Positions 6,242 through 43,626 of a DNA stretch of 64,000 nt are shown piece after piece. The notes under the pieces are model-generated. The model was not told the origin of the DNA. It saw only the letters and a program-made list of their open reading frames with translations, and ran no database searches. The position numbers and the translations under genes are program-made. The first letter of the stretch is position 1. Each line of letters starts with the position of its first letter. The stretch comes from Propionibacteriaceae bacterium AM104-82. Its GTDB lineage: Bacteria; Actinomycetota; Actinomycetes; Propionibacteriales; Propionibacteriaceae. The stretch is from assembly GCA_027658995.1 (NCBI GenBank), contig JAQDQK010000003.1, forward strand, positions 1-64,000, written 5' to 3'.

Positions 6242-8047
6242 TCACCAGGAACTGCCGCCGCTTCCACCGAAGCCGCCGCCGCCACTCGAGCCGGAACCGC
6301 CGCTCGAGCCTCCGCTGGCGACACCGACGCCCGAGGCGACCGCCATCTGCGTGACCGTCGTCATGGCGGACGACACCGACCCGAGCGTCGAGGTCAGCCC
6401 AGCGGCCTGGCTCAACTGCACCCCGTGCAGCCAGGATGTGTCACCCATGTAGACGCCGTCGCGGGCCAGGTCGGCGAACAGCGACGACCAGTGCTCGGCG
6501 ACGCCGAAGACCATCGCGTATGGCAGGTACCTGGAGAAGATGTCGACGCCCTCCTCGAAGCGCAGCGTGTCGCGCTCCGCGGTCGAGAGGTACAGCTTGA
6601 AACCCTCCGCCTGCGCAAGCACCGCCGAACCCTTCGCGGTGCGTCGGAACGTCTTGAACGACACCACGAACAGGCCGATGCCGAAGAGTGCCACGGGGAT
6701 GCCGACCAGCCCGAATCCGAACAGCATGCCGAGCATGGCGCACATCGCCACGCCGATGAAGGTCAGGAAGAAGCCGACGATGCGCATGGCCTGTAGCCGT
6801 CCGTGCGAGTGCTTCTCGAGCCAGCCCCTGCCCTTGACGGCGCCGTCGAGGGCCTTGACGACCCGCCTGCCCAGCTTGCGGTTGGCGCGCAGGTCCTTGG
6901 CGGTGACCCGGGCCGACTGCTTGAACATCACCGCGAGCAGCGACTGCTCGTGGCCGAGCAGCCTGCCCGTCGGCGCCGGGTCGACCCGGGTGAGCACGAC
7001 CCCGCTCCCGGTGGACTCGATCGTCAGGTAGCCGCGGGCGGCGAGGTCGACGAGGGTCGCGGAGGCGGCGATCTTGTCGACGCTGCCCTTGAGCAGCACC
7101 CGCAGTTCGCCGGGGGAGCCGGGCGGCGGGTTGAACTGGACGGCGACCGGCGGCCGGCCCCGCCTGGACGCCCGTGCGACGGTGGCCTCGCCGCCCTTGG
7201 GGATCACGCCGGGCGGCACCCCCACGAAGACCTCGTCGCGGGAGGCGTTGCGCCACAGCGCCCACAGGATGCCAGCGGCCGCCACCAGCAGCCCGCCGGA
7301 GACGGCGCCGGTGGTCGCGTTGAGCGTGAAGGGCCGCTCGCTGGCGGGCTTTTCGACCAGTTCCTGTTCGGCGCCGACGAAGGTGCCCGCCGGGAAGCTG
7401 GCCGTGACCTGGAAGCGTTCGTGCGGGTCGAGGTGGTCGACGGAGAAGTCCGCGCCGGTCCCGTCGTGGGAGGCCTCGCAGGTCCGTTCGCCGCGCGCGC
7501 CGAAGTGGCAGTAGGAGGCCGCCACGTCCACGGGTCCGGTCACCGTCGCGGTGGCGTCGGAGAAGGGCAGGTCCCAGCCGGTGCCGATCGCGTCCCAGTT
7601 GAACTCGTCGAGGCCGCTCTCGGGGTGGTCGGGAGCGATCAGGCCGCGCACCGTGTAGGTGAGCCGGTACTGCTGCGGGCTGGTGTAGAACGTGTCGGCG
7701 TCGCCGACCTGCATCGTCATCGTCTTGGGCGAGGCGGTGCGCCGCACGTCGGTGTTGGCGCCGCTCGGCGAGGACCACTCGACAGGTCCGTAGGAGAACC
7801 GGTAGTCCTTGCCGTTGCCGGCGTCCTGCCTGGTCGGGAGCACATAGATCGGCCCGCGGCCGCGCTTGGCGGAGAAGTCCATCGTGAAGTCGATGGTGAC
7901 CTCTGCGAGGCCGTCCTCGGCAAGCCTGACCTCCGCGTGGAATCGCGTGATCGGAGCGCCGCCGTCGGCGTTGGCGCTGGGGGTCGCGAGCACCGAGAGG
8001 AGCAGCGCGATCGCCAGGGCGGTCGTCAATCGAAGGGCCTTGGTCAT
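6242..8047 (-). CDS. DUF2207 membrane protein, paralogue A
   Basis: 601 residues. A signal peptide (about 1-27, ending SANADGG) precedes an exported DUF2207 beta-sandwich with the family string SGLDEFNWDAIGTGWDLPFSDATATVTGP. A first transmembrane helix follows at about 245-262, then a cytoplasmic winged-helix-like segment (ASATLVDLAARGYLTIE). A pair of helices lies near 420-465, then the YLPYAMVFGVAEHWSSLF segment and a Gly/Ser-rich tail ending in SGGSSW. Function of DUF2207 proteins is unknown. It is the most downstream of three tandem paralogues, separated by 25 bp from copy B, and has its own -10-like hexamer (TAGCCT) 6 nt before the ATG. Confidence 0.85.
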   Translation of the reverse strand: MTKALRLTTALAIALLLSVLATPSANADGGAPITRFHAEVRLAEDGLAEVTIDFTMDFSAKRGRGPIYVLPTRQDAGNGKDYRFSYGPVEWSSPSGANTDVRRTASPKTMTMQVGDADTFYTSPQQYRLTYTVRGLIAPDHPESGLDEFNWDAIGTGWDLPFSDATATVTGPVDVAASYCHFGARGERTCEASHDGTGADFSVDHLDPHERFQVTASFPAGTFVGAEQELVEKPASERPFTLNATTGAVSGGLLVAAAGILWALWRNASRDEVFVGVPPGVIPKGGEATVARASRRGRPPVAVQFNPPPGSPGELRVLLKGSVDKIAASATLVDLAARGYLTIESTGSGVVLTRVDPAPTGRLLGHEQSLLAVMFKQSARVTAKDLRANRKLGRRVVKALDGAVKGRGWLEKHSHGRLQAMRIVGFFLTFIGVAMCAMLGMLFGFGLVGIPVALFGIGLFVVSFKTFRRTAKGSAVLAQAEGFKLYLSTAERDTLRFEEGVDIFSRYLPYAMVFGVAEHWSSLFADLARDGVYMGDTSWLHGVQLSQAAGLTSTLGSVSSAMTTVTQMAVASGVGVASGGSSGGSGSSGGGGFGGSGGSSW

Positions 8048-8053
8048 CCCACG

Positions 8054-8059
8054 AGGCTA
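8054..8059 (-). promoter_or_regulatory. Leaderless -10 box of DUF2207 copy A
   Basis: TAGCCT (reverse strand) lies 6 nt before the ATG at 8047, with no Shine-Dalgarno. Confidence 0.4.
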
Positions 8060-8072
8060 GGCGCCGCCCGGC

Positions 8073-9877
8073 TCACCAGGATCCGCCCCCGCCGCCACCG
8101 AAGCCCCCGCCACCGCTGAAGCCGGAGCTTCCAGAGCTACCGGAGGTGGATGACGAGTAACTCGACGACGAGGAACTGCTCTGCACGCCTCCCATGGAGC
8201 GGGAAACGGCAGCGAAGCTCGACGCGAAGGCCGCGGTGCTGAGGAGGTTGCCTCCCGAGACCCACGAGTCGTCGAAGCGGTAGCGGCCCTGCTCGCCAAG
8301 CGTCGTGAACAGCTTGGTCCAGCGGTCGTCGAGGTCGAACACCACCGCGTGGGGCAGGTACTTGGAGAAGACGTCCACGCCCTCCTCCAGGCGCAGCGTG
8401 TCTGCCTCTGCGGTGGCGAGGTAGAGCTTGAAGCCCTTCGCCTGCTCCAGGTAGGCCTTACCGACCCGGGAGAGCTTCTTCCTGCGGATCGACGAGGCGA
8501 ACAGGATGATGCCGAAGACCAGCACCGGCAGACCGACGAGCCCCCATCGCATCATGGCCCCGAGCAGGATGGTTCCGATGGCCCCGAACACGATGAGGTT
8601 GATGCCAAGGGTGAAGGCACCAACGCCACCCCAGCCGTCTTCGTGGAACCAGCCCCTGTCCTTGACGTTGTCCCTGAGCTTGGTCTCGAACCGCGAGGGG
8701 ATGTCGCCGTACGGGGGAGTGCGCAGTTCCTCGGAGGTCACCGCGTCGTCGCGGTGGAACAGCCTGCCGAGCAGGAAGTCCTCGAAGGGCTCGAGCGAGA
8801 TGGGGTCGGACCTGAGGCGCACCAGCGCGAACTCCTTGCCGACGCCCTGGTTGATCCGCAGGTAGCCGCGGACGGCGAGGTCGAGGACCGTTGCGGTCAG
8901 CGCGGTGCGCCCCGTCTTCCTGGTCAGCAGCAGCCCGAGTTCGGCGGGCGTGGTGTCGCGGGGCGGCGCGAAGGCGACGGTAGTCACCTTGGAGGCGGGC
9001 CGCTGCATCGCGGCGAGGGCCTCCGCGTTCGGCTTCCGCTTGGGAGGCTTCTCCTTCTTCCTGAGCCGGCGGAACTGTGCGACGCCGCCGAGGATCGCGG
9101 CCAGCATCCCGACCCCGAAGATGGTGCCCGTGACCGGGGTGAAGGTGAAGGCCGTGAGCAGGGTCAGCTTTGCCCGGTGGTGCTGTTGGACGCCGCCGAA
9201 GGTGCCTGCGGGGAAGCCGACGACGGTCTGGACGGGGTTGGACGGCGGAAGTTCCGAGAGGTAGAAGCTTGCGGAGGCGCCGTCGGTCCAGCCGTCGCAC
9301 GGACGCTGATTCTGGTAGTCCCCGACGAAGCACGCGACCTTTGTCACGTCGGTCGGCCCCGTGACGGTGATGTCGATGTCGCTGATCGTGGAGGTCCATC
9401 CGGTGCCGAGCGCGTTCCAGTTGAACTCGTCGAGTCCGCTGTCCTTCTGGTCGGAGACGATGAAGCCGGTCACGTCGTAGGTGATGGTGTAGTCCTGGGG
9501 CGTGGTGTAGACGGTGCCCTCGCGGCCGATCTTGAGGGTCTGCACGCCGCCGGAGTCGGTGCTGTCCGCGACGTCCGCCGCGGCCCGCTCGGGGAGCTGA
9601 CCTGCACGTCGGAGTACTCGAAGGTGTACTCCATCGACGGGTCCGCGCCGTCGTCCTGGGCGGTCGCGAGCGCGATGTAGGGGCCGTGGCCGGACCTGGC
9701 GCCGAAGTCGAGCGTGAGGTCGATCCTCACCTCGGCGACGCCCTCGGGTGTCAGGTTGACTGCGACGTCGTAGTTGGTGATCGGCACCCCGGCCTCAGCG
9801 CGGGCGGGCAGGGCGCCCGTGGCCGTCACGATCAGGCCGACGGCAACTGCCACGAGCATTCGCCAGAAGATCCGCAT
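8073..9877 (-). pseudogene. DUF2207 membrane protein, paralogue B, with a one-base frameshift
   Basis: The first part reads from the ATG at 9877 (signal peptide, AGVPITNYDVAVNLTPEGVAEVRIDLTLDFG). At the CCC run 9584-9586 (GGG in coding sense) the frame is lost. Adding one G makes the protein read SPSGAAADVADSTDSGGVQTL and continue in the frame that ends at 8073. The repaired gene is 1806 bp (601 residues), exactly the length of copy A. The downstream part has the DUF2207 string SGLDEFNWNALGTGW, TM segments, KYLPHAVVFDLDDRWTKLF and a C-terminal Gly-rich tail ending in GGGGGSW. As sequenced, only a fragment would be made. It may be a homopolymer sequencing error. TACGCT lies 7 nt before the ATG. 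Confidence 0.82.
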
Positions 9878-9884
9878 GGGCGCC

Positions 9885-9890
9885 AGCGTA
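9885..9890 (-). promoter_or_regulatory. Leaderless -10 box of DUF2207 copy B
   Basis: TACGCT (reverse strand) lies 7 nt before the ATG at 9877. Confidence 0.35.
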
Positions 9891-9903
9891 AGCCCGCACG
9901 GGT

Positions 9904-11721
9904 TTACCAGGAGCCGCCGCCACCGCCGCCGAAGCCGCCGCCGCCGCTGAACCCGGAGAATCCGGAGGAGCTGCCGGTGGAGGCCGTCATGCCCGCGGCG
10001 CGGGCCGCGTCGAAGGAGCTCGACATGGTCGAGGTGAGGTTGTTCATGGCGTTGGCGAACGCGAACCCGTGGTAGAGGTCGGCGCCGACGTACCAGGACG
10101 TGTCGGCGCGGTAGATGCCGTCGGCGCCCAGTTGGGCGAACAGCTTCGACCAGCGGTCGGCGACGCCGAAGACCATCGCGTAGGGCAGGTACTTGGAGAA
10201 GATGTCCTCGCCCTCCTCGAAGCGCAGCGTGTCCTTCTCCGCGGTCCGCAGGTACAGCTCGAAGCCCTTGGCCTGCGCGAGGTTGGCCGACCCGAGCGCG
10301 GTGCGCTTGCGGAACTTGCCCGACATCACGATCAGCCCGATGCCGAAGATCGCGAGCGGGATCGCGATCAGGCTCCACCCGGACATCGACAGCCCGATGG
10401 CAGCGACGCCCGCGATGATGATGCAGGCGCCGCCCAGCGTCATGGGGACCGCCTGCGCCGTGCTCGGGTTGGCCTTGAACCAGCCCTTGTTGACCACGGA
10501 GTTGTAGAGGCCGGTGCGGGCCGTCGACAGGTCGTGCTGGTGGTCGACGCCGCGCAGTTCGCCGGAGCTGACCGCGGGTTGGCCCTGGAACACGTCGGCG
10601 AGCAGCTTCGACTCGAAGGGCAGCAGTTCGTCGCGCTGGCGCGGGTTGGTGGCGTACAGGACGAACTGGTCGCCGCCGTTCGACTCGATCCGCAGGTAGC
10701 CGCGCACCGCGAGGTCGACGAGGGTCGCCGACACGTCGACGTTGTCGGCGGTGGTGTCGAAGAGGGTGCCGATCTCGCCGGGGGTGGAGCCCTTCGGCGG
10801 GTTGAACTGCACGGTGACCGGCGCCTTGCCGGAGGCCTGACCGATGTTGCCCGGTTCGCCCTTGCCCGGCGTCAGGCCGGGGGTGAGCCCGAGGTAGACG
10901 TCGTCGCGGGCGTGCCTGCGACGGATCGCTGCCAGGCCGCCCAGTGCCGCGACGAGGCCCGCGCCTGCGACACCGCCGGTGACGGGGGTCAGCGCGAACG
11001 CGTTGCCGAGCGAGGGCTTCTTACGCTTGTGCTGCTCGACGCCGCCGAACGTGCCTGCCGGGAAGCCCGCGACGATCTGCATGGGCTCCCGCGGCGAGAG
11101 GGCGCCGACCGAGAAGCTGGCCGAGGTGCCGGACTGCGACGCGTCGCACGGTGTGGTGTAGCCGCGCCCGTAGAAGCAGGCCGTCTTCTGCACGTCTGCC
11201 GGGCCGGTGACCTCGACGGTGACGTTGCTGATCCGCGACTCCCACGCCGGGCCGATCGCGTTCCAGCTGAACTCGTCGAGCCCGCTGTCCTTCTGGTCGG
11301 AGACGATGAAGCCGGTCACCTCGTAGGTGAGGGTGTAGTCCTCCGGACCGTTGTTGAAGATGTCCGCGTCGCCGATCCGCAGCGCGATGCCGTCGCTCTC
11401 CGACTCCTTCGACACCGTGGTGTTGGCGCCCGAAGACGAGGTCACGTTGAAGTTGGAGTACTTGAAGACGTACTGCTCCTCGGGGTTGGCGCCGTCGTCC
11501 TGCACGGTCGGCAGGACGACGATCGGCCCGCGGCCGCGCACCACGGAGAAGTCCATGGTGAAGTCCACCTTCATCTCCGCGACACCCTCTGGCGTGAGGT
11601 TGACGGCCACGTCGTAACGCGTGATGGGGGCGTCCGTGTCCGCCTTCGCAGGCATGGCCACGAACCAGACCGAGACGAGGGCGAGTAACAGTGCGGCGAG
11701 TCCAGCTCGAAGCTTCGTCAT
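9904..11721 (-). CDS. DUF2207 membrane protein, paralogue C
   Basis: 605 residues, intact. It has a signal peptide (about 1-27, ending AKAD) and a DUF2207 domain with TDAPITRYDVAVNLTPEGVAEMKVDFTMDFS and SGLDEFSWNAIGPAWESR. A TM helix at about 245-265 is followed by the cytoplasmic STLVDLAVRGYLRIE-like segment, two central helices, KYLPYAMVFGVADRWSKLF, and a tail ending GGGFGGGGGGSW. It is the first of the three tandem copies in reading direction. Copy C resembles copy B in the N-terminal domain (IVSDQKDSGLDEF is shared) and copy A in the central region, suggesting duplication with later divergence. Function unknown; a membrane or envelope role is inferred from topology only. Confidence 0.85.
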   Translation of the reverse strand: MTKLRAGLAALLLALVSVWFVAMPAKADTDAPITRYDVAVNLTPEGVAEMKVDFTMDFSVVRGRGPIVVLPTVQDDGANPEEQYVFKYSNFNVTSSSGANTTVSKESESDGIALRIGDADIFNNGPEDYTLTYEVTGFIVSDQKDSGLDEFSWNAIGPAWESRISNVTVEVTGPADVQKTACFYGRGYTTPCDASQSGTSASFSVGALSPREPMQIVAGFPAGTFGGVEQHKRKKPSLGNAFALTPVTGGVAGAGLVAALGGLAAIRRRHARDDVYLGLTPGLTPGKGEPGNIGQASGKAPVTVQFNPPKGSTPGEIGTLFDTTADNVDVSATLVDLAVRGYLRIESNGGDQFVLYATNPRQRDELLPFESKLLADVFQGQPAVSSGELRGVDHQHDLSTARTGLYNSVVNKGWFKANPSTAQAVPMTLGGACIIIAGVAAIGLSMSGWSLIAIPLAIFGIGLIVMSGKFRKRTALGSANLAQAKGFELYLRTAEKDTLRFEEGEDIFSKYLPYAMVFGVADRWSKLFAQLGADGIYRADTSWYVGADLYHGFAFANAMNNLTSTMSSSFDAARAAGMTASTGSSSGFSGFSGGGGFGGGGGGSW

Positions 11722-18448: not shown

Positions 18449-19285
18449 TCAGTCGTCGAGCAGGCCCATCAGGAGCGAGAAGCCGCCGATCATCAGCGCG
18501 CCGTGCGTGATGGTGCGAAGCGCCGGGTCGCCGCCGTAGCGGCCGTAGTAGCCCTGCGCCCATGCCGCGTGCTGCTGGTCCTCCCAGTAGGGGACCTGGC
18601 GCTGCCCGGCGTAGACCATCCGGATCGACGGGTCGTTGCCGGTGCGGATCCGCTGCGCGTCTGCCGCGCAGGCGGGCACGTCGCGGGCAGCGCCGCCGGG
18701 CGGCGCCCAGGAGACGTTGGCGACGGAGACGCCGTGCGAGGGGTCGAAGAAGCATGGCGGCCGATGTTCGGGCACGGCCTCGCCCTTCACCCGGGCGCGG
18801 ACGCAGGCCACCGAGTAGCGGCCGCCCTCCATGATCTCGGCGATCCGCTTGACGTCGGCGTTGGACTGGGCCGTGGCCAACTGCTGCTTGGCGCCGTCGT
18901 AGGCGTCGAGGGCGGAGGTGTAGTCGGCCTGCGTCGCCTCATCGAGGGGCATCCCGACGACCTCGAGGTCGAGGTCGCGCAGTTCCTCGCCGAAGCTGGT
19001 GATGTCGCGGTCGATCGCCTCGCGGGAACCCTGAGACATCGGCTGCCTGGCCGCGGGGTCGCCGTAGGGCTGGCCCATCATCGGGAACGCCTGCTGCCCG
19101 TAGGGCTGCTGCGCGTAGGGGCCGCCGAGGCCGCCCCATTGGTTGATCTGCGGGCGAGGGCGGGGATCAAGCGGCTGGGGTGGGTAACCGCTGTCGCCGA
19201 GGCGCGGGCGATTGCCCCGCGTGACGCTCAGGATCACCGAGATCATCACGAAGATGAACATCATCGTGATCAATCCGCTGAACAT
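18449..19285 (-). CDS. Membrane-anchored protein of unknown function with Cys-containing C-terminal domain
   Basis: 278 residues. An N-terminal transmembrane helix (about 1-21) is followed by a Pro/Gln/Gly-rich linker (about 25-85) with YAQQPYGQQAF-type repeats. A helical segment comes next (about 88-150, REAIDRDITSFGEELRDLDLEVVG), then a compact domain with PPCFFDPSHGVSVANVSWAPPGGAARDVPACAADAQRI, a pattern recurring in actinomycete membrane proteins. A hydrophobic patch ends the protein (ITHGALMIGGFSLLMGLL). GAGGTGG lies upstream of the ATG. No enzymatic motif is recognised. Confidence 0.65.
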   Translation of the reverse strand: MFSGLITMMFIFVMISVILSVTRGNRPRLGDSGYPPQPLDPRPRPQINQWGGLGGPYAQQPYGQQAFPMMGQPYGDPAARQPMSQGSREAIDRDITSFGEELRDLDLEVVGMPLDEATQADYTSALDAYDGAKQQLATAQSNADVKRIAEIMEGGRYSVACVRARVKGEAVPEHRPPCFFDPSHGVSVANVSWAPPGGAARDVPACAADAQRIRTGNDPSIRMVYAGQRQVPYWEDQQHAAWAQGYYGRYGGDPALRTITHGALMIGGFSLLMGLLDD

Positions 19286-19565: not shown

Positions 19566-19614
19566 TTGACGTCGGCCCATTGGCGGGCGTAGGTTCGGTG
19601 AAAACGATTACTCA
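19566..19614 (+). promoter_or_regulatory. Operon promoter with overlapping LacI-type operator
   Basis: TTGACG (19566-19571) and TAGGTT (19590-19595) are 18 bp apart. Immediately downstream, TGAAAACGATTACTCA (19599-19614) is an imperfect palindrome around a central CG, the usual form of LacI/CcpA-family operators. It would cover the transcription start, giving classic repression. The likely binder is the LacI protein encoded at the end of the same operon. Confidence 0.6.
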
Positions 19615-19666
19615 GGTTTTCCCTGGGTGTGACGGTCCAGAAACCCAACGAAGGGTAGACACATCG

Positions 19667-20746
19667 ATGACCAGTTACGGAAGCTACGGTTCCAGCTTGC
19701 GGGATCTTCCCCGGCTGCGTGCCACCAGGCGGCGGAGGGTGTCCTCGTACGACGCTTCGGGGGGCAATGAGGATCGCCTGACATTGCGCCCGGGGGAGAC
19801 CTTGCAACTCGCCGAGATAGCTGGCGCCGGCGATATCAACCACATCTGGATGACCGTCGCGCCTGCCGGTCCAACCGACCCCGAGACCCCGGACAACGAC
19901 TTCCTGCGCAAGCTCGTCCTGCGCGCCTACTGGGACGGTTCCGACAAGCCGAGCATCCTGGTGCCACTTGGCGACTTCTTCGGCGTGGGCCACGCGAAGA
20001 CCACCAACTTCGCCTCGCTCCCGCTGCAGATGAGCCCGCAGGACGGCAAGGCGTTCAACAGCTTCTTCCACATGCCCTTCGCGGACGGGGCCCGCTTCGA
20101 GATCACCAGCGAGTGCGAAGAACTGGTGCTCTGGTTCTACTACTACATCGACTACGAGGCCTTCGAAGAGCTCGAGGACGGCATCGGCCGGTTCCACGCC
20201 TCCTGGCACCGGGAGAACCCGACCGACGGCATCGAGCAGGGGGAGCTGACCAACGGCGAGTTCCTGTTCGGCGGCGACAACACCACGGGCGAGGGCAACT
20301 ACACCATCCTCGAGACCAAGGGTCGCGGACACTACGTCGGCTGCACCTTCAACGTCACCAACCTGCGCCACACGGAAGCCTGGAACTGGTACGGCGAGGG
20401 CGACGACATGATCTTCGTCGACGGCGAGTCCTGGCCCCCCAACATCCACGGCACCGGCACCGAGGACTACTTCAACACCGCCTGGTGCCCGTCCGAGCCC
20501 TTCAACGGTCCGTACCACGGCATCACGATGCCCGGTGGACCGAACTGGTCGGGTCAGATCTCGATGTACCGCTTCCACATCGAGGATCCGGTCACCTTCA
20601 GCGAGTCGGTCCGGGTCACGATCGAGCACGGCCACAACAACCAGCGGTGCGACGACATCTCGTCGGTCGCGTACTGGTATCTGGACCGCGTCGACGAGAC
20701 GCTGACCCTCCCGCCCGTCGAGCAGCGGATGCCGAGGCTCGGCTGA
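19667..20746 (+). CDS. DUF2961 glycoside hydrolase (GH172), candidate exo-D-arabinofuranosidase
   Basis: 359 residues without signal peptide, so cytosolic. DUF2961 enzymes form family GH172: known members are alpha-D-fructofuranosidases acting on difructose dianhydride I and exo-alpha-D-arabinofuranosidases acting on mycobacterial D-arabinan. Family features are SSYDASGGNEDRLTLRPGE near the start, NHIWMTV, LVPLGDFFG, WYGEGDDMIFVDGE with Glu at about 244, and GTGTEDYFNTAW with Glu at about 266; these two motifs contain the catalytic glutamates of the family as I recall it. AAGGG lies about 11 nt before the ATG. First gene of the operon; its stop overlaps the next start (TGATG). Partnership with GH183 and GH116 favours D-arabinan over fructan substrates. 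Confidence 0.85.
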   Translation: MTSYGSYGSSLRDLPRLRATRRRRVSSYDASGGNEDRLTLRPGETLQLAEIAGAGDINHIWMTVAPAGPTDPETPDNDFLRKLVLRAYWDGSDKPSILVPLGDFFGVGHAKTTNFASLPLQMSPQDGKAFNSFFHMPFADGARFEITSECEELVLWFYYYIDYEAFEELEDGIGRFHASWHRENPTDGIEQGELTNGEFLFGGDNTTGEGNYTILETKGRGHYVGCTFNVTNLRHTEAWNWYGEGDDMIFVDGESWPPNIHGTGTEDYFNTAWCPSEPFNGPYHGITMPGGPNWSGQISMYRFHIEDPVTFSESVRVTIEHGHNNQRCDDISSVAYWYLDRVDETLTLPPVEQRMPRLG

Positions 20747-21888
20747 TGGATCTGACGCGACGGGGGCTCTTGACGGCGGGGACTGTAGCGTCGCTCGCGA
20801 CGGCCTGTTCCGGCGGCCGCGGTGGCCCCGTCGCGTCACCGCTTCCAGGTGGGTTCGTGCTCGGTTCGGTCGAAGGCGTGACCCGCGTCGCGCAACTCAC
20901 CGGACATGGCGCGGTCAACGACACCGCAGGGGTGCTGCTCGCGGGAGCCGACCTGGGACACATGACGACCGTAGGCGAGCGCACCTGGTTCGTCTTCGGC
21001 GACAACTTCGGCATCCGTGACGCCGACGCGTTCGGCGGAACCGGCGAGGTCTGGAAGTCCAACTGCCTCGCCTGGACGACCGACGACGACCCCACCGACG
21101 GCATCACCTTCGACGGTTGGGTTCTCGACGACCTGGAACAGGTCAAGGAGGTGCTGCCGGGCGACCACAAGCCCAACGACCAGGTCGGCGAGGTGACCAA
21201 GATCCCGACCCAACTCTTCGCCGTCGACGAGACGATGTACCTCGCGTACATGTCGGTGTCGCACTGGGGCGAGCCGGGTGTCTGGGAGGCCGATCATGCC
21301 GGGCTCGCGAGGTCGAGCGACGACGGGCAGACGTGGGAGATCCTCGACAAGGTCACCTGGCCGGGGGAGTCAGGCTTCGTACAACTCGCGCAGGTGCCAC
21401 TCAGGGTGGACGACGTCGACTGGATCTACCTCTGGGGGATCCCGGCCGGGCGCTTCGGCGCGGTGTCCCTGATGCGCGTGCGCGCCGAGATCGCCTCCGT
21501 CGAGGAACTGGCCTCCTACGAGTACTTCGCAGGCGAGGTCGACGGCGGGGCGACCTGGAGCACGGAGCTGAGCGATGCCGTCGTGATCCTCGACCGCGGC
21601 ACGGCGGAACTCTCCGTGCTGTGGTCCAGCCACCTCAAGAGATGGCTGCTCAGCAGCATGCTCGACAACGGGTCGGCGGTCCTCTACGAGGGCCTCTCTC
21701 CATGGGGCCCGTGGAGCGAACCCCACGAGATCCTCACCCAAGCGGACACACCGGGACTCTACGCCCCGTACCTGTGCCCTCGTTACGTCGCCGACGACGG
21801 GCGGCGGCTCTACTTCACGCTCTCCATCTGGGGGCCCTACCAGGTCTATTGGTACTCAATGGACCTCCGTCGAACTGGCGCGGACTGA
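20746..21888 (+). CDS. DUF4185 lipoprotein (GH183), candidate endo-D-arabinanase
   Basis: 380 residues. The N-terminus carries a twin-arginine lipoprotein signal (LTRRGLLTAGTVASLATAC, Cys about 21), so the mature enzyme should be anchored outside the membrane. The remainder is a DUF4185 five-bladed propeller-like domain with the hallmark WFVFGDNFG (about 83-91) and repeated blade strings such as GLARSSDDGQTWEI and GPWSEPHEIL. DUF4185 proteins were shown to be endo-D-arabinanases (GH183) that cut the D-arabinan of mycobacterial arabinogalactan and lipoarabinomannan. As the only secreted hydrolase of the operon, it would release oligosaccharides for the adjacent importer. Family assignment is strong; substrate is inferred from family and neighbours. 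Confidence 0.85.
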   Translation: MDLTRRGLLTAGTVASLATACSGGRGGPVASPLPGGFVLGSVEGVTRVAQLTGHGAVNDTAGVLLAGADLGHMTTVGERTWFVFGDNFGIRDADAFGGTGEVWKSNCLAWTTDDDPTDGITFDGWVLDDLEQVKEVLPGDHKPNDQVGEVTKIPTQLFAVDETMYLAYMSVSHWGEPGVWEADHAGLARSSDDGQTWEILDKVTWPGESGFVQLAQVPLRVDDVDWIYLWGIPAGRFGAVSLMRVRAEIASVEELASYEYFAGEVDGGATWSTELSDAVVILDRGTAELSVLWSSHLKRWLLSSMLDNGSAVLYEGLSPWGPWSEPHEILTQADTPGLYAPYLCPRYVADDGRRLYFTLSIWGPYQVYWYSMDLRRTGAD

Positions 21889-21909
21889 GGTCCTGCCGAC
21901 AACACACCG

Positions 21910-21924
21910 CCTGCCGCAGGCAGG
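21910..21924 (+). other. Small intercistronic hairpin
   Basis: CCTGCC-GCA-GGCAGG is a perfect 6-bp inverted repeat between the GH183 and binding-protein genes. It lacks a U run. Such hairpins often set the higher messenger level of a binding-protein gene within a transporter operon. Confidence 0.4.
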
Positions 21925-21941
21925 ACGAGACAAAGGAGTCA

Positions 21942-23331
21942 ATGATGACGAACAACATTTCGAGGAGGAAGCTCCTCGGAGCGACCGGGGGCGTCGCAGC
22001 AGTCAGCCTGCTGGCGGCCTGCGGGTCCGGAACCCCTGGGGAGCCGGCGCCGACAGACGACGGAGGCGGCGGAACCGGAGGCAGCGCGGCCGCAGCAACC
22101 ACGATCCAGTTCTGGCACCGGACGTTCACCCCGGTCGAGAACAAGTGGTACGAGTCGATCATCGAACAGTTCAACAAGGCGCAGACCGCAGTGAAGGTGG
22201 TGGGCACCGAGGTGCCTGCGGATGCCTGGGACCAGAAGATGAAGTCGGCGCAGGCCGCGGGCAAGGCACCCGACGTCTACACCCACCCGGGCGCCATCCA
22301 GGACGCGGTCAACGCGGGCCAGCTCTTCAAGCTCAACGACGTGATGTCGGCCGAGGCGCTCGGCGAAATCATGGACTCGGCCAAACCGGTGTCCGCCGTG
22401 GGCGAGGACTACTACGCATACCCGCTGCTCCTCGAGCCGCAGGCGGTCCTCTTCTGGAACAAGGACATGCTCACCGCGGCCGGGCTCGACCCCGAGAAGG
22501 GACCCGAGACCTGGGACGACCTGTTCGGTATGTGCGAGAAGATCAAGCCCACCCTCAAGAAGGGCCAGTACTGCATCTCGCCCGCTGGTGACGCCCCCGA
22601 CGTTCGCCTGGTCGAGCGTGGGCCAGCAGTTCAACTTCAACAACCACCTGGCGCTGAACGACGACTGGACGGCTGCCGCGGTCCAGGAGCCCGGCTACAA
22701 GGCGCTGATCGAGGTCTACAAGACGCTCTGGGACAACGACTACATGCCCAAGCAGATCCTGGCCGCGTACGTCGAGGGAAAGGACTTCGGCGAGCAGAAG
22801 TGTGCGTTCAAGGTGTCCGGCTCCTGGATGATGTCCGAGATCGGCTCCGACTACCCGGATCTGCTCACCAAGACCGGCATCGGCAAGGTGCCCAGCTCGC
22901 CCGACGCGGGCGGCAGGACCGCGACCACGCTCGGCAACTTCAAGTGGGTCATCGACGCCAAGACCAAGAACTCCCAGGCCGCAGGCGACTTCCTTTCCTG
23001 GGCGATTGCAGGCGATCCCGCCAACCTGGTGCCGTTCTTCGTCGACACCCAGTTCACCAAGGTGCCCGTGCGCAAGTCGGTGCAGGAGGCCGTCGCAAAG
23101 GACGAGAAGGCCGCCGACGCTCCATGGTCCGAGATCGTCACCAACGAGATCGCACCGGACGCGATCCCTGAGCCGACCTACCCGTGGGACGTGTCTCTGG
23201 CCGTCGGCACGGCGATGGAGGCAGGCATGAAGGGCGCCTCGTCGATCGATGATGCGCTCGCCACCGCCACGGCCGCCATCAAGACGGTGATCGATCGCGA
23301 GAAGCTGCCGGAGAAGGCGCCCAAGCAGTAG
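21942..23331 (+). pseudogene. CUT1 sugar-binding lipoprotein with a one-base frameshift
   Basis: Solute receptor of the operon's ABC importer. The N-terminus is a Tat-type lipoprotein signal (SRRKLLGATGG...LLAACGSG), then a Gly-rich linker and the binding fold (IQFWHRTFTPVENKWYESIIEQF). The frame breaks at a run of five C (22594-22598). Removing one C makes the text read SPAGDAPTFAWSSVGQQF and continue in the frame ending at 23331, giving 462 residues, normal for the family. As written, the first frame ends out of register within the C-terminal lobe. AAGGAG precedes two tandem ATGs (21942, 21945); the second has the better 6-nt spacing. An oligosaccharide ligand, possibly D-arabinan fragments, is inferred from neighbours. 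Confidence 0.85.
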
Positions 23332-23398
23332 CCGTCACCGGGCCGGTTGGCGACGGCGGGTGCGCCCCGCCGACCGGCCTCGTCCAAGGGAGACACCA

Positions 23399-24325
23399 AT
23401 GACCACCGCCTCCGCGCGGCCAGAGCGTGACGCCAGAAGGCGCCAGGCCAGATACCAGTACCGCGACTCGAAGGTCGCCTACCTGCTGCTGTTGCCTGTC
23501 GTGATCCTGCTCGGCATCTTCGTGATCTGGCCGGCCGTCTACGCCGGCTACCTGTCGTTCCAGAACTGGAGCTTCTACAAGGCCCCTGAGTTCGTGGGCT
23601 TCGACAACTTCCTCGCGGTCCTGAAAGATCCGCTGTTCTGGGCCACGATCCGCCGCGGCTTCCTTTTCGTCCTGATGACCGTCCCCGTCATGCTGGTGCT
23701 CGCTTTCTTCTTCGCGAGCCTCGTGGTGGCAGTCTCGCGGCGGTTCGCGACGGTGCTGAAGGTCAGCATCTACATCCCGACCATCATCTCGACAGTGATC
23801 GCGTCGATCGTGTTCGTGCTGATCTACGACTACTCCGGCGGCCTGCTCAACTGGTTCCTGGGGTACTTCGGCATCGACCCCATCGCCTGGATCGGAGACC
23901 CGGCCTGGGCGCTGCTGGCGGTGGCGGTGCCCGCCATCTGGCTCGGCCTCGGCCTGACCTCCCTGATCATGGTTGCTGCGATGGTCGACATCCCCATCGA
24001 GTTCTACGAGGCGGCCGCGATGGAGGGGGCCGGGTGGTGGCAGAAGACGCTGTACATCACGATCCCCCAGATGAAGAACGTCCTGCTGTACCTGCTGATC
24101 ACGGGGTTCGTGGCAGCCATTCAGCAGTTTGAGCTTCCGCTGATCATGACCGGAGGCGGCCCGCTCGACTCGACGACACTGCCGAACCTCTTCATCTTCA
24201 ACCACTTCCGCAACGACATCAACGTCGGCTACTCGATCGCCGCGGCGCTGCTGCTGTTCGTGGTGCTCGGCACCGTCTCCGCGTTGGTGTTCAAGGTGCT
24301 CAACTCGGAAAAGTTGGTGGACTGA
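23399..24325 (+). CDS. Sugar ABC transporter permease (MalF-like)
   Basis: 308-residue inner-membrane permease of the CUT1 group with about six transmembrane helices. The EAA loop that contacts the ATPase is at about 210-235 (EAAAMEGAGWWQKTLYITIPQM). The ATG at 23399 has AAGGGAG 6 nt upstream; an in-frame ATG at 23360 lacks such a site. It pairs with the next permease, whose start is one base after this stop. No ATPase gene lies in the operon, so a shared MsiK-type ATPase elsewhere is expected. Confidence 0.93.
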   Translation: MTTASARPERDARRRQARYQYRDSKVAYLLLLPVVILLGIFVIWPAVYAGYLSFQNWSFYKAPEFVGFDNFLAVLKDPLFWATIRRGFLFVLMTVPVMLVLAFFFASLVVAVSRRFATVLKVSIYIPTIISTVIASIVFVLIYDYSGGLLNWFLGYFGIDPIAWIGDPAWALLAVAVPAIWLGLGLTSLIMVAAMVDIPIEFYEAAAMEGAGWWQKTLYITIPQMKNVLLYLLITGFVAAIQQFELPLIMTGGGPLDSTTLPNLFIFNHFRNDINVGYSIAAALLLFVVLGTVSALVFKVLNSEKLVD

Positions 24326-24326
24326 C

Positions 24327-25184
24327 ATGAATGAGATCGACGAGATCCGCCGGCCACACCGCACCGCCGGATGGTGGATCCGAGGCGTCCTGAAGGGCAT
24401 CGTCGGGGCCGTGTACATCGCGGCGGCGCTGTTCCCGCTCGCCTGGATGATCATCGCCGGGTTCAAGGCGAAGACCGAGGTCATCCAGACCCCCTTCCAG
24501 TTCTTCCCCGAGGTCTGGAAGTGGGAGAACTACGCCCAGATCCTGGCCGACCCGACGTTCACCCGCACCCTCCTGTGGACCCTGCTCGGCGCGCTGCTGT
24601 TCACGGTCCTGAGCCTGACCGTCAACTCCCTGGCCGCCTACGCCTTCGCGCGCCTCGAGTTCCGGTTCAAGAAGACGCTATGGGTGCTGGTGATCACCAC
24701 CATGTTCATCCCGGGCATGACCATCCTGCTGACCAGCTTCATCGTGGTCACGAAACTCCACATGCTCGACACCCTCGCAGTGCTCGTCGTACCCGGTGCC
24801 GCCAGCGCCGCGAGTGTCTTCTTCATCCGCCAGTTCTACCTCAACATCCCCTCCTCCCTCGAGGAGGCGGCGATGCTCGACGGCTGCGGCCGGATCCGCA
24901 TCTTCGTCAGCCTGTTCCTGCCCCTGTCGAAGCCCCCGTTCGTGGTGATGGGCATCACGGCCTTCCTGGCCTACTGGAACTCCTATGTCTGGCCCATCCT
25001 GACCATCACGTCCCCTGACAAGTACGTGCTGCAGCAGTACCTGGCGACCTTCCGGTCCGAGCGCAACACCGAACTGGGGCTCCTGATGGCAGGCTCGACG
25101 CTCGCGGCCCTCCCCGTCGTCGTCCTGTTCCTGATCTTCCAGCGCCAGATCATCGGCAACATCAAGATGGCGGGCCTGAAGTGA
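24327..25184 (+). CDS. Sugar ABC transporter permease (MalG-like)
   Basis: 285-residue partner permease with about six helices and the EAA loop EEAAMLDGCGRIRIFVSLFLPLSKP at about 190-214. It completes the membrane part of the importer. Its stop overlaps the GTG start of the GH116 gene by 4 bp (GTGA), so translation of transporter and intracellular hydrolase is coupled, which supports the hydrolase acting on the imported sugar. Confidence 0.93.
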   Translation: MNEIDEIRRPHRTAGWWIRGVLKGIVGAVYIAAALFPLAWMIIAGFKAKTEVIQTPFQFFPEVWKWENYAQILADPTFTRTLLWTLLGALLFTVLSLTVNSLAAYAFARLEFRFKKTLWVLVITTMFIPGMTILLTSFIVVTKLHMLDTLAVLVVPGAASAASVFFIRQFYLNIPSSLEEAAMLDGCGRIRIFVSLFLPLSKPPFVVMGITAFLAYWNSYVWPILTITSPDKYVLQQYLATFRSERNTELGLLMAGSTLAALPVVVLFLIFQRQIIGNIKMAGLK

Positions 25185-27728
25185 CGACGTGGAACCCGAA
25201 CGACCACCCGGCCGTCGCCATGCCGCTCGGCGGGGTCGGGACAGGCTCCATCGCGTTGGGCTCCGACGGCGGCTGGCGGCAGGCGCAGTTGATGAACGTC
25301 GGGACGCACCATGGTGACCTGCCCGGGACGTTCATGGCGCTCCGGGTCCAGCAGTTGGAGCCGATCCTGAACCAGACGATGGTGCTCCAGGCCGAGCGCC
25401 ACGACCCCGGCGCCCAGGGGCGCCCCGCGACCCCGATGGCCAACGACGACCTGGTCCCTGCCTGGCAGCGTGACCTGATCGCCGCCCATGGGGGAACCAG
25501 CACGTCGATGACCGGGACCTATCCGGTCGCGGAAGTCACCCACGACACCGGCGGCCCGATCGTGGTCAGGGTCAAGGTCGTCTCGCCGCTGGTCCCCGGC
25601 GATGCCGACGCCTCGGGGCTGCCAGCCGTCCTCGTCGACGTCGAACTCGTCAACACCTCGGAGGTGACGGCCTGGACGTGGCTCGCGTTCTCGGCGCACA
25701 ACGCGGTAGGACTCGACCCCCACCTGAACCCGCGCGGGGTCCGTGCCCCCGGGTACGGCGGGAACGTGAACCGCTTCCGCCGCTCCGGGACGAGAGCCGA
25801 CCTGGTGATGGACAACCCCAGCGTGGCGCCGTCATCACCGTGGTCCGGCCAGCAGGTCATCTCCTGCGAAGCGGACCGGGTGGTTTCTCTGCCCTGCTTC
25901 GAGGAGCCGGACGAGTTGTTCGACTTCCTCCGGCTGCTCGCCCCCTGGGGAGACCAGACGGTGCTCGGCGTCGCGCCGTGGGCGCAGGTCGGGCAGCAGA
26001 GTGGGCCCGAGCCACGGTTCGGGCCCAGCCCGCAGGGGTCGACCTGGCTTGGCGCGCTCGTCGCCCACAACGAGATCCCGGGGAACTCAAGCGTCACGGT
26101 GCGCTTCGTCCTCGCCTGGCACTTCCCCAACCGCTACGTCGACTTCGTCCAGTACGGTCCCGACCGACCAGAGGTCGGCCCCACGAGGTTCTGGATCGGC
26201 AACCACTACGCGACCCGGTTCCCCGATGCCCTGGCCGTCGCGGACGATGCGCTCGGCAACTGGGACGCCCACTGGGCGGACACCGGTCGTTGGGTCGACG
26301 CCGTGAACGCCGTCGACCTCCCTGAGCGGTGGCGCACCCACCTGGCGGCCCAGCCCATGCCGCTGCGCACGCCGACCACATTCAGGACCCACGACGAACT
26401 TCTACGGCCACGAGGGGCTGCTGGGGGAGTCGACGCTGATGTGGTCGGGTGACGTCGGGGGTGCCTGCCCGCTGAACTGCACACACGTGTGGAACTACGC
26501 CCAGGCCGGGGCCGCTCTCTTCCCTGCCCTCGAGAGGTCGATGCGCGAGACAGAGTTCGACCTGATGCAGGCGCATTCTGGGGCGCTGCCGCATCGGGTC
26601 CACCTACCCCGATACCTGAGGCAGCACGGCGATGGCCCAGTGGGCGCCCCCGACCAGCCGGCCCTCGACGGTATGTGCGGCGCGGTCCTCAAGACCTACC
26701 GAGAGCTTCGCCGCGGCGCTGTTGACCTTGACTGGGTCCGATCGCGCTGGGCGGGGATCGAAAGGTTGATGGGGCATATCGCCAGTACGTGGGATCCAGA
26801 CGGGACGGGCCTGCTGCACGGGATCCAGCCGAGCACCTACGACATCGGCTTGCACGGTGCCAACACGTACATGGGCACCTACTGGCTCGCGGCGCTCAGA
26901 GCTGCTGAGGAGTTGGCGCTCCTGATCGGACACGATGTCCTTGGCCAGCGTTGGCGGTCACGCTTCGAGCGCTCGTCGGTCGCCCTCGATGAGGCGTGCT
27001 TCGCGGGCGGCTACTACGTTCAGGTGCCGGATCCGGACCTGCCCGACACGCATCAGTGGGGTAATGGTTGCCTGGCCGACCAGCTGATCGGTCAGTGGTG
27101 GGCGCACGAACTGGAACTCGGGTACCTCTTGCCGGAGGACCACGTCCGCGAAGCCCTTGCAAGTGTGGTTCGCCACAACCTCCTCGATGACGCAGGGACC
27201 GGAACGCAGCGGCCCTATGCGATGCGGGGGGAGCGCGGATTGGTGCTGTGCACGTGGCCGGACGGAGGCCGCCCGGAGGTTCCGACGCTGTACTGTGACG
27301 AGGTGTGGACCGGGGTGGAATACCAGGTCGCGGCACACTGCGTGCGGGAGGGTCTTCTGGGTGAGGCCGAGGCCATCGCGGACGCGGTGTGGACTCGGCA
27401 CGACGGTCGGCGTCGGAATCCCTTCAACGAGATCGAATGCGGCGACCACTACGTCAGGGCCATGTCTGGCTGGAGCCTGTTCGAAGCATCCCTCGGACTC
27501 AGCTGGAATCAGATCGACGGGACGCTTCGGGTCGGGCGCGACGGTAGCTACCCGATCCTGACTGGAGAGGGATGGGGAACTGCAGTGGTTCGTCAGGATT
27601 CGGTTGAACTGCGCTGCCACCGGGGCCGGCTCAAGGTGCGTGCCGTTGTGCGTGGCGACGACGGCGCGCGCTTCCGGGTTTCCTCAGATCTCGGCGTCGA
27701 TGATGGCCCGCTCGTGGTGGAGCGTTGA
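25181..27728 (+). pseudogene. GH116 glycoside hydrolase with a frameshift, candidate exo-beta-D-arabinofuranosidase
   Basis: The first part (from GTG 25181) begins AVAMPLGGVGTGSIALGSDGGWRQAQLMN, the GH116 N-terminal beta-sandwich seen in GBA2-type glucosylceramidases. Near 26391-26397 the frame shifts. In the +1 frame the text resumes NFYGHEGLLGESTLMWSGDVGG, then CPLNCTHVWNYAQAGAALFP, the family's catalytic (alpha/alpha)6 barrel, and later STYDIGLHGANTYMGTYWLAALRAAEE. Restoring the frame gives about 848 residues, normal for GH116. No signal peptide: cytosolic. GH116 includes beta-glucosidases and, in Microbacterium arabinogalactanolyticum, an exo-beta-D-arabinofuranosidase; the GH172/GH183 neighbours favour the latter. 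As sequenced the enzyme is split just before its catalytic domain, and the second half has a possible internal ATG at 26439. Confidence 0.83.
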
Positions 27729-28741
27729 TGTCACACCAGCGCGAGAAGGATCCCACGATCACCGACGTCGCCCGTGCCTCAGGGGTGTCCACGGCGACCG
27801 TGTCCCGGGTGCTGAACGGCCATCCCCGCGTCGCACCTGCACTCGTTGAGCGCGTACTGGCGGCGACCAAGGAGATCAACTACCGGCCCAACGGCGCGGG
27901 CCGTGCGTTGCGCCGTCAACGCTCCGACCTGCTCGCCGCGATCGTGCCGGACGTGCGCAATCCATTCTTCGTCCGCCTCCTTGAAGCATTCGAGACGGTT
28001 GCCAACGCCGAGGGGTACTCGGTGGTGCTGTGCAACACACGTGAAGAGCCAGCCCGGGAGCGGGCCTCGATAGAGACGGTGATTGCGCATCGGGTCTCGG
28101 GCGTGCTGATCGCGGCCGCCTCACCGAAGCCGAGCCATCTGCGGCCGTTCGACCAGGCGGGCATCCCTGTGATCACCGTCGACCGTACCGTCGCAGGCTT
28201 CGGAGGCGACACCATCGTCGTCGACAACCGCATGATCGGTCGTCTCGCCGCAGAGCACCTGCTGGAACAGGGGCGGATGTCGCCGATGGTGCTGAACCAT
28301 ACGACGGACATCTCTCCGATGCGTGAGCGTGAGGAGGGCTTCCGTGCGGCGATGGCGGCCGCCGGACACCCCGTCCCGGATGCACGGGTCTTCTCACTCC
28401 CGTTCCACGAGGACCGGCCCGCTGAGGTCGCCCGGCTGATCGCCGCGACGGACGCCGACGCCATCTTCGCCGCGACCAACACCCTGACCGGTGAGGCCTT
28501 TTCCGCGCTGCGGAGCCAAGGGAAGGCGATCGGGCCTGAGGTCGGCCTGGTCGGCGTCGACGACGACCGCTGGAACCTGATGGTCGAACCACAGGTCACG
28601 GTGGTGGAGCAGCCGTCTGAGGAGTTGGGCCGCTGGGCGGGGCAGTTGTTGGCGACGAGGGCGCGCGGTGGCCAGATGACCAACGCGAGGATCATCCTCG
28701 ACCCGGTGCTGAGGCCGAGGGCCAGTTCGCTGCGGACCTGA
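27728..28741 (+). CDS. LacI-family transcriptional repressor
   Basis: 337 residues. The N-terminal helix-turn-helix and hinge (TITDVARASGVSTATVSRVLNG, then PNGAGRALRRQRSD) are textbook LacI. The periplasmic-binding-protein-like effector domain follows (LLAAIVPDVRNPFFVRLLEAFE, VITVDRTVAGFGGDTIVVDNRM, VGLVGVDDDRWNLMVEPQVTVVEQP). It starts at the ATG overlapping the GH116 stop (TGATG) and ends the operon, so it is probably autoregulated. It most likely binds the operator at 19599-19614 and releases it when a pentofuranoside or its product accumulates; the effector is inferred. Confidence 0.92.
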   Translation: MSHQREKDPTITDVARASGVSTATVSRVLNGHPRVAPALVERVLAATKEINYRPNGAGRALRRQRSDLLAAIVPDVRNPFFVRLLEAFETVANAEGYSVVLCNTREEPARERASIETVIAHRVSGVLIAAASPKPSHLRPFDQAGIPVITVDRTVAGFGGDTIVVDNRMIGRLAAEHLLEQGRMSPMVLNHTTDISPMREREEGFRAAMAAAGHPVPDARVFSLPFHEDRPAEVARLIAATDADAIFAATNTLTGEAFSALRSQGKAIGPEVGLVGVDDDRWNLMVEPQVTVVEQPSEELGRWAGQLLATRARGGQMTNARIILDPVLRPRASSLRT

Positions 28742-28889: not shown

Positions 28890-30665
28890 TCAGTCGGCGT
28901 CGACGATCTCGCAGAGCAGTTGACCCGCGGTGACGGCGTCGCCCGGGGCGACCGACAGCGACGCGATGACTCCGTCGCGGTGCGCGTTGAGCGGCTGCTC
29001 CATCTTCATGGCCTCGATCACGACGATCGCGTCGCCCTCGGAGACGCTCTGCCCCTCCTCGACGTTGACCTTGACGATGGTGCCCTGCATCGGCGTGGTG
29101 AGCGAGTTGCCGCTGGGCGCGGAGACCTTGCTCCCGCCGCGGTCGCGCCGGGTGGGGCGCTTGGCCTGCTTGGGCGACTTGGCCCGCGCGCCCAGCCCGC
29201 CGGGCAGCTTGACCTCGACCCGCTTGCCGTTGACCTCGACCGTGATGATCTCCGGCTCCAACCGGTCCTCGTCCTCGCCGAGTTCCCCGCTGTAGGGCGC
29301 CAGTTGGCCCGTGAAGTCCGTCTCGATCCAGCGCGTGTGCACGTCGAACGAGCCGCCCTCAGCCGTGTATGCGGGGTCGGTGAGGACCGCGACGTGGAAC
29401 GGGACAACCGTGGGCATCCCCTCGATCTTCAGCTCGGCCAGCGCCCGACGGGAGCGCTCGATGGCCTGCTCGCGGCTCGCGCCCGTCACGATCACCTTGG
29501 CGACCAGCGAGTCGAAAGCGCCGGGCACCGTCATGCCAGCGTGGTAGCCCTCGTCGACGCGGACGCCGGGGCCGCTCGGGGCGTGCCATTTGGTGAGCGT
29601 CCCGGGGGCTGGCATGAAGTTGCGGCCCGGGTCCTCCGCGTTGATGCGGAACTCGATGGAGTGGCCGCGGATCTCGGGGTCGTCGTAGCCGAGTTCCTCG
29701 CCGGCGGCGATCCGGAACATCTCGCGCACCAGGTCGAGCCCGGTGACCTCCTCGGAGACGGGGTGCTCGACCTGCAGGCGGGTGTTGACCTCGAGGAAGG
29801 AGATCGTGCCGTCGAGGCCGACGAGGAACTCGCAGGTGCCTGCGCCGACGTAGCCGGCCTCCTTGAGGATCGCCTTGCTCGACTCATACAGCCGGGACAT
29901 CTGGTCGTCGGTGAGGAACGGCGCCGGCGCCTCCTCGACCAGCTTCTGGTGGCGGCGCTGCAGGGAGCAGTCGCGCGTCGAGACGACCACCACGTTGCCG
30001 TGCGAGTCGGCGAGGCACTGCGTCTCGACGTGGCGCGGCTTGTCCAGGTAGCGCTCCACGAAGCACTCGCCCCTGCCGAACGCCGTGACGGCCTCGCGGG
30101 TGGCCGACTCGAACATGTCGGGCACCTCCTCGAGCGTGCGGGCCACCTTCAGGCCTCGCCCGCCGCCGCCGAAGGCCGCCTTGATGGCGATCGGCAGCCC
30201 GTGCTGCTCCGCGAAGGCGACGACCTCGTCCGCGTTGGCGACCGGGTCGGCAGTGCCTGGCACCAGCGGCGCGCCGACCTTCTGAGCGATGTGGCGCGCA
30301 CGGACCTTGTCGCCGAGCGCCTCGATGGCCTCGGGCGGCGGGCCGATCCAGGTCAGGCCCGCCCCGATCACGGCGCGCGCGAAGTCGGCGTTCTCAGCCA
30401 GGAAGCCGTAGCCGGGATGCACGGCGTCCGCGCCGGAGCGCTCCGCGACGCTGAGCAGCTTGTCGATGTTGAGGTAGGTGTCGGCCGGGGTGGCGCCGTT
30501 GAGCGCGAAGGCCTCGTCGGCCAGCGGCACGAACAGCGAGTCGGCGTCCGAGTCGGCGTAGACCGCCACCGACCCGATTCCCGCGTCCCGGGCTGCGCGG
30601 ATCACCCGCACGGCGATCTCTCCGCGGTTTGCGATCAGAACCTTCTGGATGGCCTCGTTGCCCAC
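28890..30665 (-). CDS. accA: Acyl-CoA carboxylase alpha subunit (biotin carboxylase plus biotin carrier)
   Basis: 591 residues. The biotin carboxylase half starts [19 protein letters not shown] and includes the ATP-grasp loop [11 protein letters not shown] (about 164-174) and [18 protein letters not shown] (about 294-311). A Lys/Arg-rich linker (about 495-515) leads to the biotinyl domain with [11 protein letters not shown], the Lys between the two Met being biotinylated. It carboxylates biotin with bicarbonate and ATP for acetyl- or propionyl-CoA carboxylation. Start is GTG with AGGAGGA 5 nt upstream. The carboxyltransferase, epsilon subunit and biotin ligase genes lie 5-9 kb away. Confidence 0.95.
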
Positions 30666-43500: not shown

Positions 43501-43626
43501 CTCGCCTCCCTCCGATGGACAACCCTACTGAAGGGTTGAAACCGGGCCCGCCTCGGCGTGGCGGCCCCGCGCGCCGCGAGGGTTGGGGTGAGACTGGGTC
43601 AGCACCCTTCCCCGAGGAGCCGACAC

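Follow-up and report, generated by a model that had tools for sequence, protein, structure and literature searches.

The closest described relatives of the locus treated here are known from two organisms. Microbacterium arabinogalactanolyticum carries a locus (MIAR_33170-33320) with an ATP-binding cassette (ABC) importer, glycoside hydrolases (GH) of families 172 and 116 and four GH183 genes. D-arabinose and an extract of mycobacterial walls induce it, and endo-cleavage outside the cell, import and exo-cleavage inside have been proposed for it; similar clusters are stated to occur in other Actinobacteria, with Cellulomonas sp. 73-145 named (PMC10509167). A Bacteroidota type of locus, Dysgonomonas gadei PUL42, likewise has GH183, GH172 and a putative GH116 (PMC10115798). 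We analyzed a seven-gene operon in positions 1-64,000 of contig JAQDQK010000003.1 of Propionibacteriaceae bacterium AM104-82; this 64-kb stretch is the window, and all coordinates are window coordinates. Judged from sequence, the operon probably serves the LacI-controlled uptake and digestion of D-arabinan from the arabinogalactan and lipoarabinomannan of mycolata (probability about 0.85). It is a new example of a published cluster type rather than a new type, and the original prediction erred in regarding a set of these three enzyme families with its own import system as little described, as the M. arabinogalactanolyticum locus has one (PMC10509167). Figure 9 of that paper may already show a Tessaracoccus cluster.

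The operon shares with the M. arabinogalactanolyticum locus the row of GH183, binding protein, permease A and permease B in the same order, the presence of GH172 and GH116, and signal sequences on endo- but not exo-enzymes (by eye for the window). GH183, GH172, GH116 and an ABC importer, which together characterize a Gram-positive D-arabinan utilization locus, are all found. The two loci differ in that M. arabinogalactanolyticum has four GH183 genes and the window one; in that the former's GH172 is of the ExoMA1 type and lies on the strand opposite the GH183-importer row, whereas the window's GH172 has Cys at the specificity position and is the first gene of a one-strand operon; and in that the former locus includes isomerase and kinase genes, which are missing from the operon and from the 45 other predicted window genes. 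Compared with PUL42, whose DgGH172c groups with the window's GH172, the window differs by its ABC importer and LacI regulator (PMC10115798). The window's gene order recurs in Tessaracoccus aquimaris (as which we take genome G011), Tessaracoccus sp. OS52, T. rhinocerotis and an Arachnia metagenome-assembled genome (MAG), and also in Actinotalea, Occultella, Hamadaea, Nonomuraea and Thermoactinospora. Occultella loci carry an extra second GH172 with Asn at the specificity position, OS52 and T. rhinocerotis an extra second, divergent GH183, and T. aquimaris, unlike the window, has whole binding protein and GH116 genes. The features are as follows.

19566..19612, + strand: putative promoter, TTGACG, 18 nucleotides (nt), TAGGTT, with the LacI-family operator-like TGAAAACGATTACT at 19599-19612 (by eye)
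19667..20746, + strand: GH172 (DUF2961), Cys-type, grouped with DgGH172c and 4kq7, leader not seen by eye (Pfam, PDB matches, tree)
20746..21888, + strand: GH183 (DUF4185), twin-arginine-like lipoprotein by eye (Pfam, EndoMA1 match, residues)
21942..23331, + strand: ABC importer component, extracellular sugar-binding protein with a frame break near 22.59 kb (Pfam, two frames)
23399..24325, + strand: ABC importer permease A (Pfam BPD_transp_1)
24327..25184, + strand: ABC importer permease B (Pfam BPD_transp_1)
25181..27728, + strand: GH116 of the exo-beta-D-arabinofuranosidase kind, similar to ExoMA2, with a frame break near 26.40 kb (both Pfam parts, ExoMA2 scores, residues)
27725..28741, + strand: LacI-family regulator (Pfam LacI and Peripla_BP)

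The seven genes (19667-28741) plausibly form a single transcription unit, because neighbors overlap (GH172/GH183 by 1 base, permease B/GH116 and GH116/LacI by 4 each) or stand 1-67 nt apart. The first base given in the original prediction, 19566, is also the first of the -35-like TTGACG, and the GH172 start codon lies at 19667. Pfam matched all three predicted enzyme families, with E values of 9.4e-87 for DUF2961, 1.8e-73 for DUF4185 and, in the GH116 gene, 6.5e-37 for Glyco_hydr_116N and 2.2e-40 for DUF608; SBP_bac_1 (3.7e-20), BPD_transp_1 (twice), LacI and Peripla_BP account for the rest.

The only PDB relatives of the GH183 protein (DUF4185, 247.9 bits) are two EndoMA1 entries, 8hhv and 8ic1 (E of 2.2e-40 and 8e-40); two further matches at E of about 0.9 are antibody chains. 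Eight EndoMA1 residues with described roles in catalysis or sugar holding (PMC10509167), namely D33, D51, W138, P141, R198, E243, L292 and Y293, are all identical in the window protein, and the full set is present in 87 of 146 GH183 locus rows. The leader, read by eye, contains RR and ends in a lipobox (MDLTRRGLL...LATAC), whose Cys21 is invariant in 15/15 aligned proteins. In a tree of 44 of 150 rows, picked by locus, the window protein falls into a 13-row set (support 99) with the M. arabinogalactanolyticum protein L017:10001, which we take to be MIAR_33320 from its position beside the binding protein gene; at 53% identity, the two are probable orthologues. EndoMA1, verified as L017:18133-19668, and EndoMA2 belong to a different set of 16 rows (support 100). 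The MIAR_33320 gene was induced more than tenfold (PMC10509167).

Elsewhere in the family, the M. arabinogalactanolyticum protein L017:19722-20822, taken as MIAR_33220, belongs to a group of DUF4185 proteins (19 of 146 locus rows) in which Trp aligns with R198 and Gln with E243. As the E243Q mutant of EndoMA1 is nearly inactive (PMC10509167), such proteins may not be endo-D-arabinanases. Two MAG contigs of Hermodarchaeota encode DUF4185 proteins (L072:9887-11080 and L071:698-1891) that keep D33, D51, R198 and E243, and genes next to the former carry carbon monoxide dehydrogenase/acetyl-CoA synthase families. Hermodarchaeota belong to the Asgard archaea, and an endo-D-arabinanase in archaea would be unexpected.

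For GH116, the only PDB sequence matched by the N-terminal piece at E up to 0.001 is ExoMA2 (1.5e-13), and the C-terminal piece scores 273 bits to ExoMA2 against at most 76 to GH116 glucosidases. The residues of GH116 subfamily 4 (ExoMA2), H446, R483, E431 and D557, are all accounted for: H446, R483 and D557 are kept in the C piece, and a Glu matching E431 is encoded in the C-piece frame upstream of its first ATG, with the same residue aligned in T. aquimaris. H446 and R483 distinguish ExoMA2 from the glucosidases, which have Asp and His there (PMC10509167). We therefore reject, on scores and residues, a beta-glucosidase identity, which the original prediction had named as speaking against D-arabinan. 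Among 30 GH116 locus rows, some of them clipped at locus ends or misaligned there, His occupies H446 in 26, Arg occupies R483 in 27 and Asp occupies D557 in 28; in three of the clipped or misaligned rows these first two positions read Tyr and Val. Following the catalytic Glu region, window-type GH116 proteins have a short stretch (GESTLMWSG) that is absent from ExoMA2, and identity to ExoMA2 over the C part is 42%; hence the window GH116 looks like a sister subgroup to ExoMA2. No leader was seen by eye in GH116, nor in GH172.

The GH172 gene matches PF11175 with 290.8 bits against a cut-off of 27, and both catalytic Glu residues described for DgGH172c, E233 and E254 (PMC10115798), are aligned in it (WYGEGDD, GTGTED). 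Its four PDB matches are 4kq7 (310 bits), DgGH172c (275), aFFase1 (252) and ExoMA1 (130). The position that separates arabinose from fructose enzymes is Asn253 in ExoMA1 and Gly299 in aFFase1 (PMC10509167). Over 80 GH172 rows, comprising the window, four references and 75 from loci, this position holds Asn in 53, Cys in 26 (counting seven Paenibacillaceae rows) and Gly in one. In a tree of 43 of these 80 rows, from which 37 Asn-type rows were dropped, the Asn group with ExoMA1 splits off at 100/100, and the 26 Cys rows, including DgGH172c and 4kq7, are united at 97/88 apart from aFFase1, with a long-branch warning at aFFase1. DgGH172c is active on arabinogalactan and on p-nitrophenyl-alpha-D-arabinofuranoside (PMC10115798).

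The importer is orthologous, by sequence comparison, to that of M. arabinogalactanolyticum. The binding protein, whose leader by eye contains RR and ends in a lipobox (SRRKLLG...LLAAC), is 65% (N piece) and 73% (C piece) identical to the one beside the GH183 gene at L017:10001, and permeases A and B are 85% and 82% identical to their counterparts. The M. arabinogalactanolyticum binding protein gene is induced by D-arabinose and mycobacterial wall extract (PMC10509167). In the window, a Pfam search found no ABC ATPase family, and no D-arabinose isomerase or FGGY-kind sugar kinase, in the operon or the 45 other predicted genes, apart from a weak uridine kinase-family match at 5582-6169. An ATPase shared between importers is usual for importers of such kind.

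Upstream of GH172, TGAAAACGATTACT is the only window site within one mismatch of TGNAANCGNTTNCA, which we take to be the general LacI operator pattern; 0.33 such sites are expected, and 31 of 100 shuffles contain one. A site with at most two mismatches precedes GH172 in all eight Tessaracoccus-group loci scanned (the window and seven others, 281 nt each about the start of GH172), which are kin and not independent; shuffled versions of these stretches hold such a site in 31-60 of 500. It stands 61-71 nt before the GH172 start in six loci and 46 nt before it in G045; in G014, where the start itself is uncertain, the distance is 111 nt. TTGAC occurs in 7/8 stretches, by eye directly before the operator-like site, and the promoter scan found no consensus sigma-70 promoter. 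Among ten loci outside the genus, two have sites within one mismatch, neither of them before GH172, so that the site appears to be a Tessaracoccus-group feature.

Our genome scan used the best 80 of 144 loci, and its counts are lower bounds, as each locus ends at 10 kb flanks or at contig ends. GH183 is present in all 80 by construction, GH172 in 68, GH116 in 36, and the binding protein with both permeases in 65. That all six genes stand together in 28/80 loci, and in the window's order (GH172-GH183-binding protein-permeases-GH116) in 10/80, argues that their association is not due to chance. In one further Tessaracoccus-group arrangement (L105, 3130-12965, genome G010), GH116 is inverted upstream, GH172, importer and LacI follow without an intervening GH183, and a divergent GH183 lies at the end. 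Among 39 Tessaracoccus-group genomes, PF13810 occurs in 13 (12 over the cut-off), PF11175 in 11 and PF12215 in six, all six of which also have PF13810 and PF11175. PF04602, the arabinan polymerase family, was found in 0/9, 0/39 Tessaracoccus-group and 0/41 genomes (0/81 different genomes, 45 of them reached through GH183 loci), and the Corynebacterium glutamicum control gave a match.

D-arabinan is the best-supported substrate because of the GH183 and GH116 residues, the orthology of the importer, the grouping of GH172 with DgGH172c, the operator-like site and the absence of PF04602; the scavenging role put forward in the original prediction is thereby well supported. In the corresponding scheme, which is that proposed in PMC10509167, the surface-tethered GH183 lipoprotein would cut D-arabinan into oligosaccharides, and the binding protein and two permeases would import these with an ATPase encoded elsewhere. 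Inside the cell, GH116 would remove beta-D-arabinofuranosyl ends and GH172 alpha-D-arabinofuranosyl units, and the D-arabinose would enter metabolism through an isomerase and a kinase encoded elsewhere. In the absence of an arabinoside or D-arabinose, the LacI protein would keep the promoter upstream of GH172 repressed.

Several observations weigh against this interpretation. The window GH183 lies in a group separate from the assayed EndoMA1 and EndoMA2, and its nearest M. arabinogalactanolyticum counterpart, taken to be MIAR_33320, was insoluble and never assayed (PMC10509167). GH172 has Cys where ExoMA1 has the specificity-giving Asn253, the split from ExoMA1 leaves it on the side of aFFase1 (with the long-branch warning), and its local identities to the four references are nearly equal (4kq7 47.0%, DgGH172c 44.6%, aFFase1 44.5%, ExoMA1 43.3%). 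PF02952, the fucose/D-arabinose isomerase family, is uninformative as a marker of operon carriers: it occurs in 33/39 Tessaracoccus-group genomes, including all six with GH116 but also most that are operon-free, and in T. aquimaris it is encoded outside the operon. Our literature search found no paper treating both Tessaracoccus and arabinan. Finally, this copy is frame-broken in two genes; the named parts, single strand and coordinates of the original prediction all stand, but as sequenced the operon is not complete.

The last point bears on this copy only. The binding protein gene has one frame change near 22.59 kb and the GH116 gene one near 26.40 kb, and both breaks might be real, so that the pathway would have been lost in the source organism, which would be compatible with a D-arabinan function for the operon type. 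The two breaks fall within 4 kb and are absent from T. aquimaris, where both frames are whole; moreover, the two pieces share one open frame in 66 of 67 related loci that have both pieces of the binding protein (the exception being L034) and in 26/26 that have both pieces of GH116. Yet every piece of both genes shows evidence of purifying selection: ratios of nonsynonymous to synonymous substitution rates (dN/dS) against T. aquimaris are 0.062 and 0.025 for the binding protein pieces, within the range of five flanking genes (0.025-0.084). The GH116 pieces, at 0.119 and 0.088, exceed this range slightly yet stay under GH183 (0.153) and LacI (0.127), with the other operon genes at 0.033-0.153. 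Furthermore, the 44 kb aligned to T. aquimaris contain, within predicted genes, ten length differences not divisible by three. Besides the two breaks, these affect a ROK-family gene (1081-2199), the start of a gene near 23.40 kb, permease B, the LacI end and two genes farther on (40348-42183 and 43558-45153); in T. aquimaris, permease B is itself in two frames. Frame-changing differences in these few other genes are consistent with mistakes in the sequencing or assembly of either genome, or with very recent changes. We conclude that the breaks in the binding protein and GH116 genes probably reflect sequencing error or very recent events, and loss of the pathway seems unlikely. G014 was excluded from this comparison, its flanking genes also having many frame changes. 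In its loci L103 and L124, operon and flanking housekeeping genes alike are frame-changed, which suggests a low-accuracy genome sequence.

A less probable alternative, to which we give little weight, is that the operon takes up another furanoside through the same enzyme families, for instance alpha-D-fructofuranosides (difructose anhydrides) or D-arabinofuranose-bearing pilin or exopolysaccharide. The position of GH172 on the aFFase1 side of the tree, with identity to aFFase1 close to that to DgGH172c, would fit the former, and two GH172 enzymes are marked 'weak' on D-arabinofuranose pilin sugars in a published table (PMC10115798). Nevertheless, GH183 and GH116 keep the D-arabinan residues and the importer is orthologous to a D-arabinose-induced system. 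We know of no part played by GH183 or GH116 in difructose use. As to GH172 itself, an ExoMA1-type enzyme is rejected by the Cys at the Asn253 position, the separate group (100/100) and the PDB ranking, and an aFFase1-type enzyme does not fit either, as the residue is Cys, not Gly, at the Gly299 position and the protein stands with DgGH172c apart from aFFase1 (97/88, with the long-branch warning). Grouping with difructose enzymes, which the original prediction had named as speaking against D-arabinan, is therefore seen only in part: the protein falls on the aFFase1 side, yet it joins the assayed DgGH172c and shares its Cys. Least probable is that the host trims or recycles an arabinan wall of its own, a role that has been proposed for the GH183 enzymes of mycobacteria; GH183 and GH172 genes do occur in arabinan-making Mycobacteriales, but PF04602 arabinosyltransferases were found in 0/39 Tessaracoccus-group genomes while the C. 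glutamicum control matched, and an importer with leaderless exo-enzymes fits feeding.

The source organism is a close relative of T. aquimaris: the operon's DNA is 92.8% identical to that of T. aquimaris and its GH183 protein 93% identical. From 0.2 to 44.2 kb, the window aligns with the T. aquimaris genome in eight co-linear blocks, seven at 92.7-93.6% identity and one of 0.5 kb at 85.3%. The operon is flanked by a gene for an unknown protein (18449-19285) upstream and a biotin carboxylase gene (28890-30665) downstream. In two other genomes, G014 and Tessaracoccus sp. OS52 (G001), these flanking genes adjoin, roughly 60-100 nt apart, so that the site is empty, and the operon is present at another genome position; we therefore infer that the lineage shared by T. 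aquimaris and the source organism acquired it here as one block, by insertion or relocation. Elsewhere in the 64-kb window, three consecutive DUF2207 membrane proteins are encoded on the - strand (6242-11721), and no structured RNA or transfer RNA was found.

Enzymes able to strip D-arabinan, which shields mycobacteria and related bacteria, are sought as tools. To study how D-arabinan fragments are taken up, a compact one-strand operon that combines a single endo-enzyme with two exo-enzymes and a dedicated repressor would be convenient in its simplicity. The most useful lead is the MIAR_33320-type GH183, which adjoins the importer in 63/80 loci in the fixed order GH183-binding protein-permeases, in Actinomycetota, Bacillota and one Chloroflexota MAG. 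This fixed pairing, with GH172 and GH116 types exchanged around it, may be new. We see about even chances that the core of Gram-positive D-arabinan feeding is this third kind of GH183, a surface-tethered putative endo-D-arabinanase lipoprotein that would hand oligosaccharides to its own importer, around which the intracellular exo-enzymes, with GH172 of two types and GH116 of two or more, would be exchanged.

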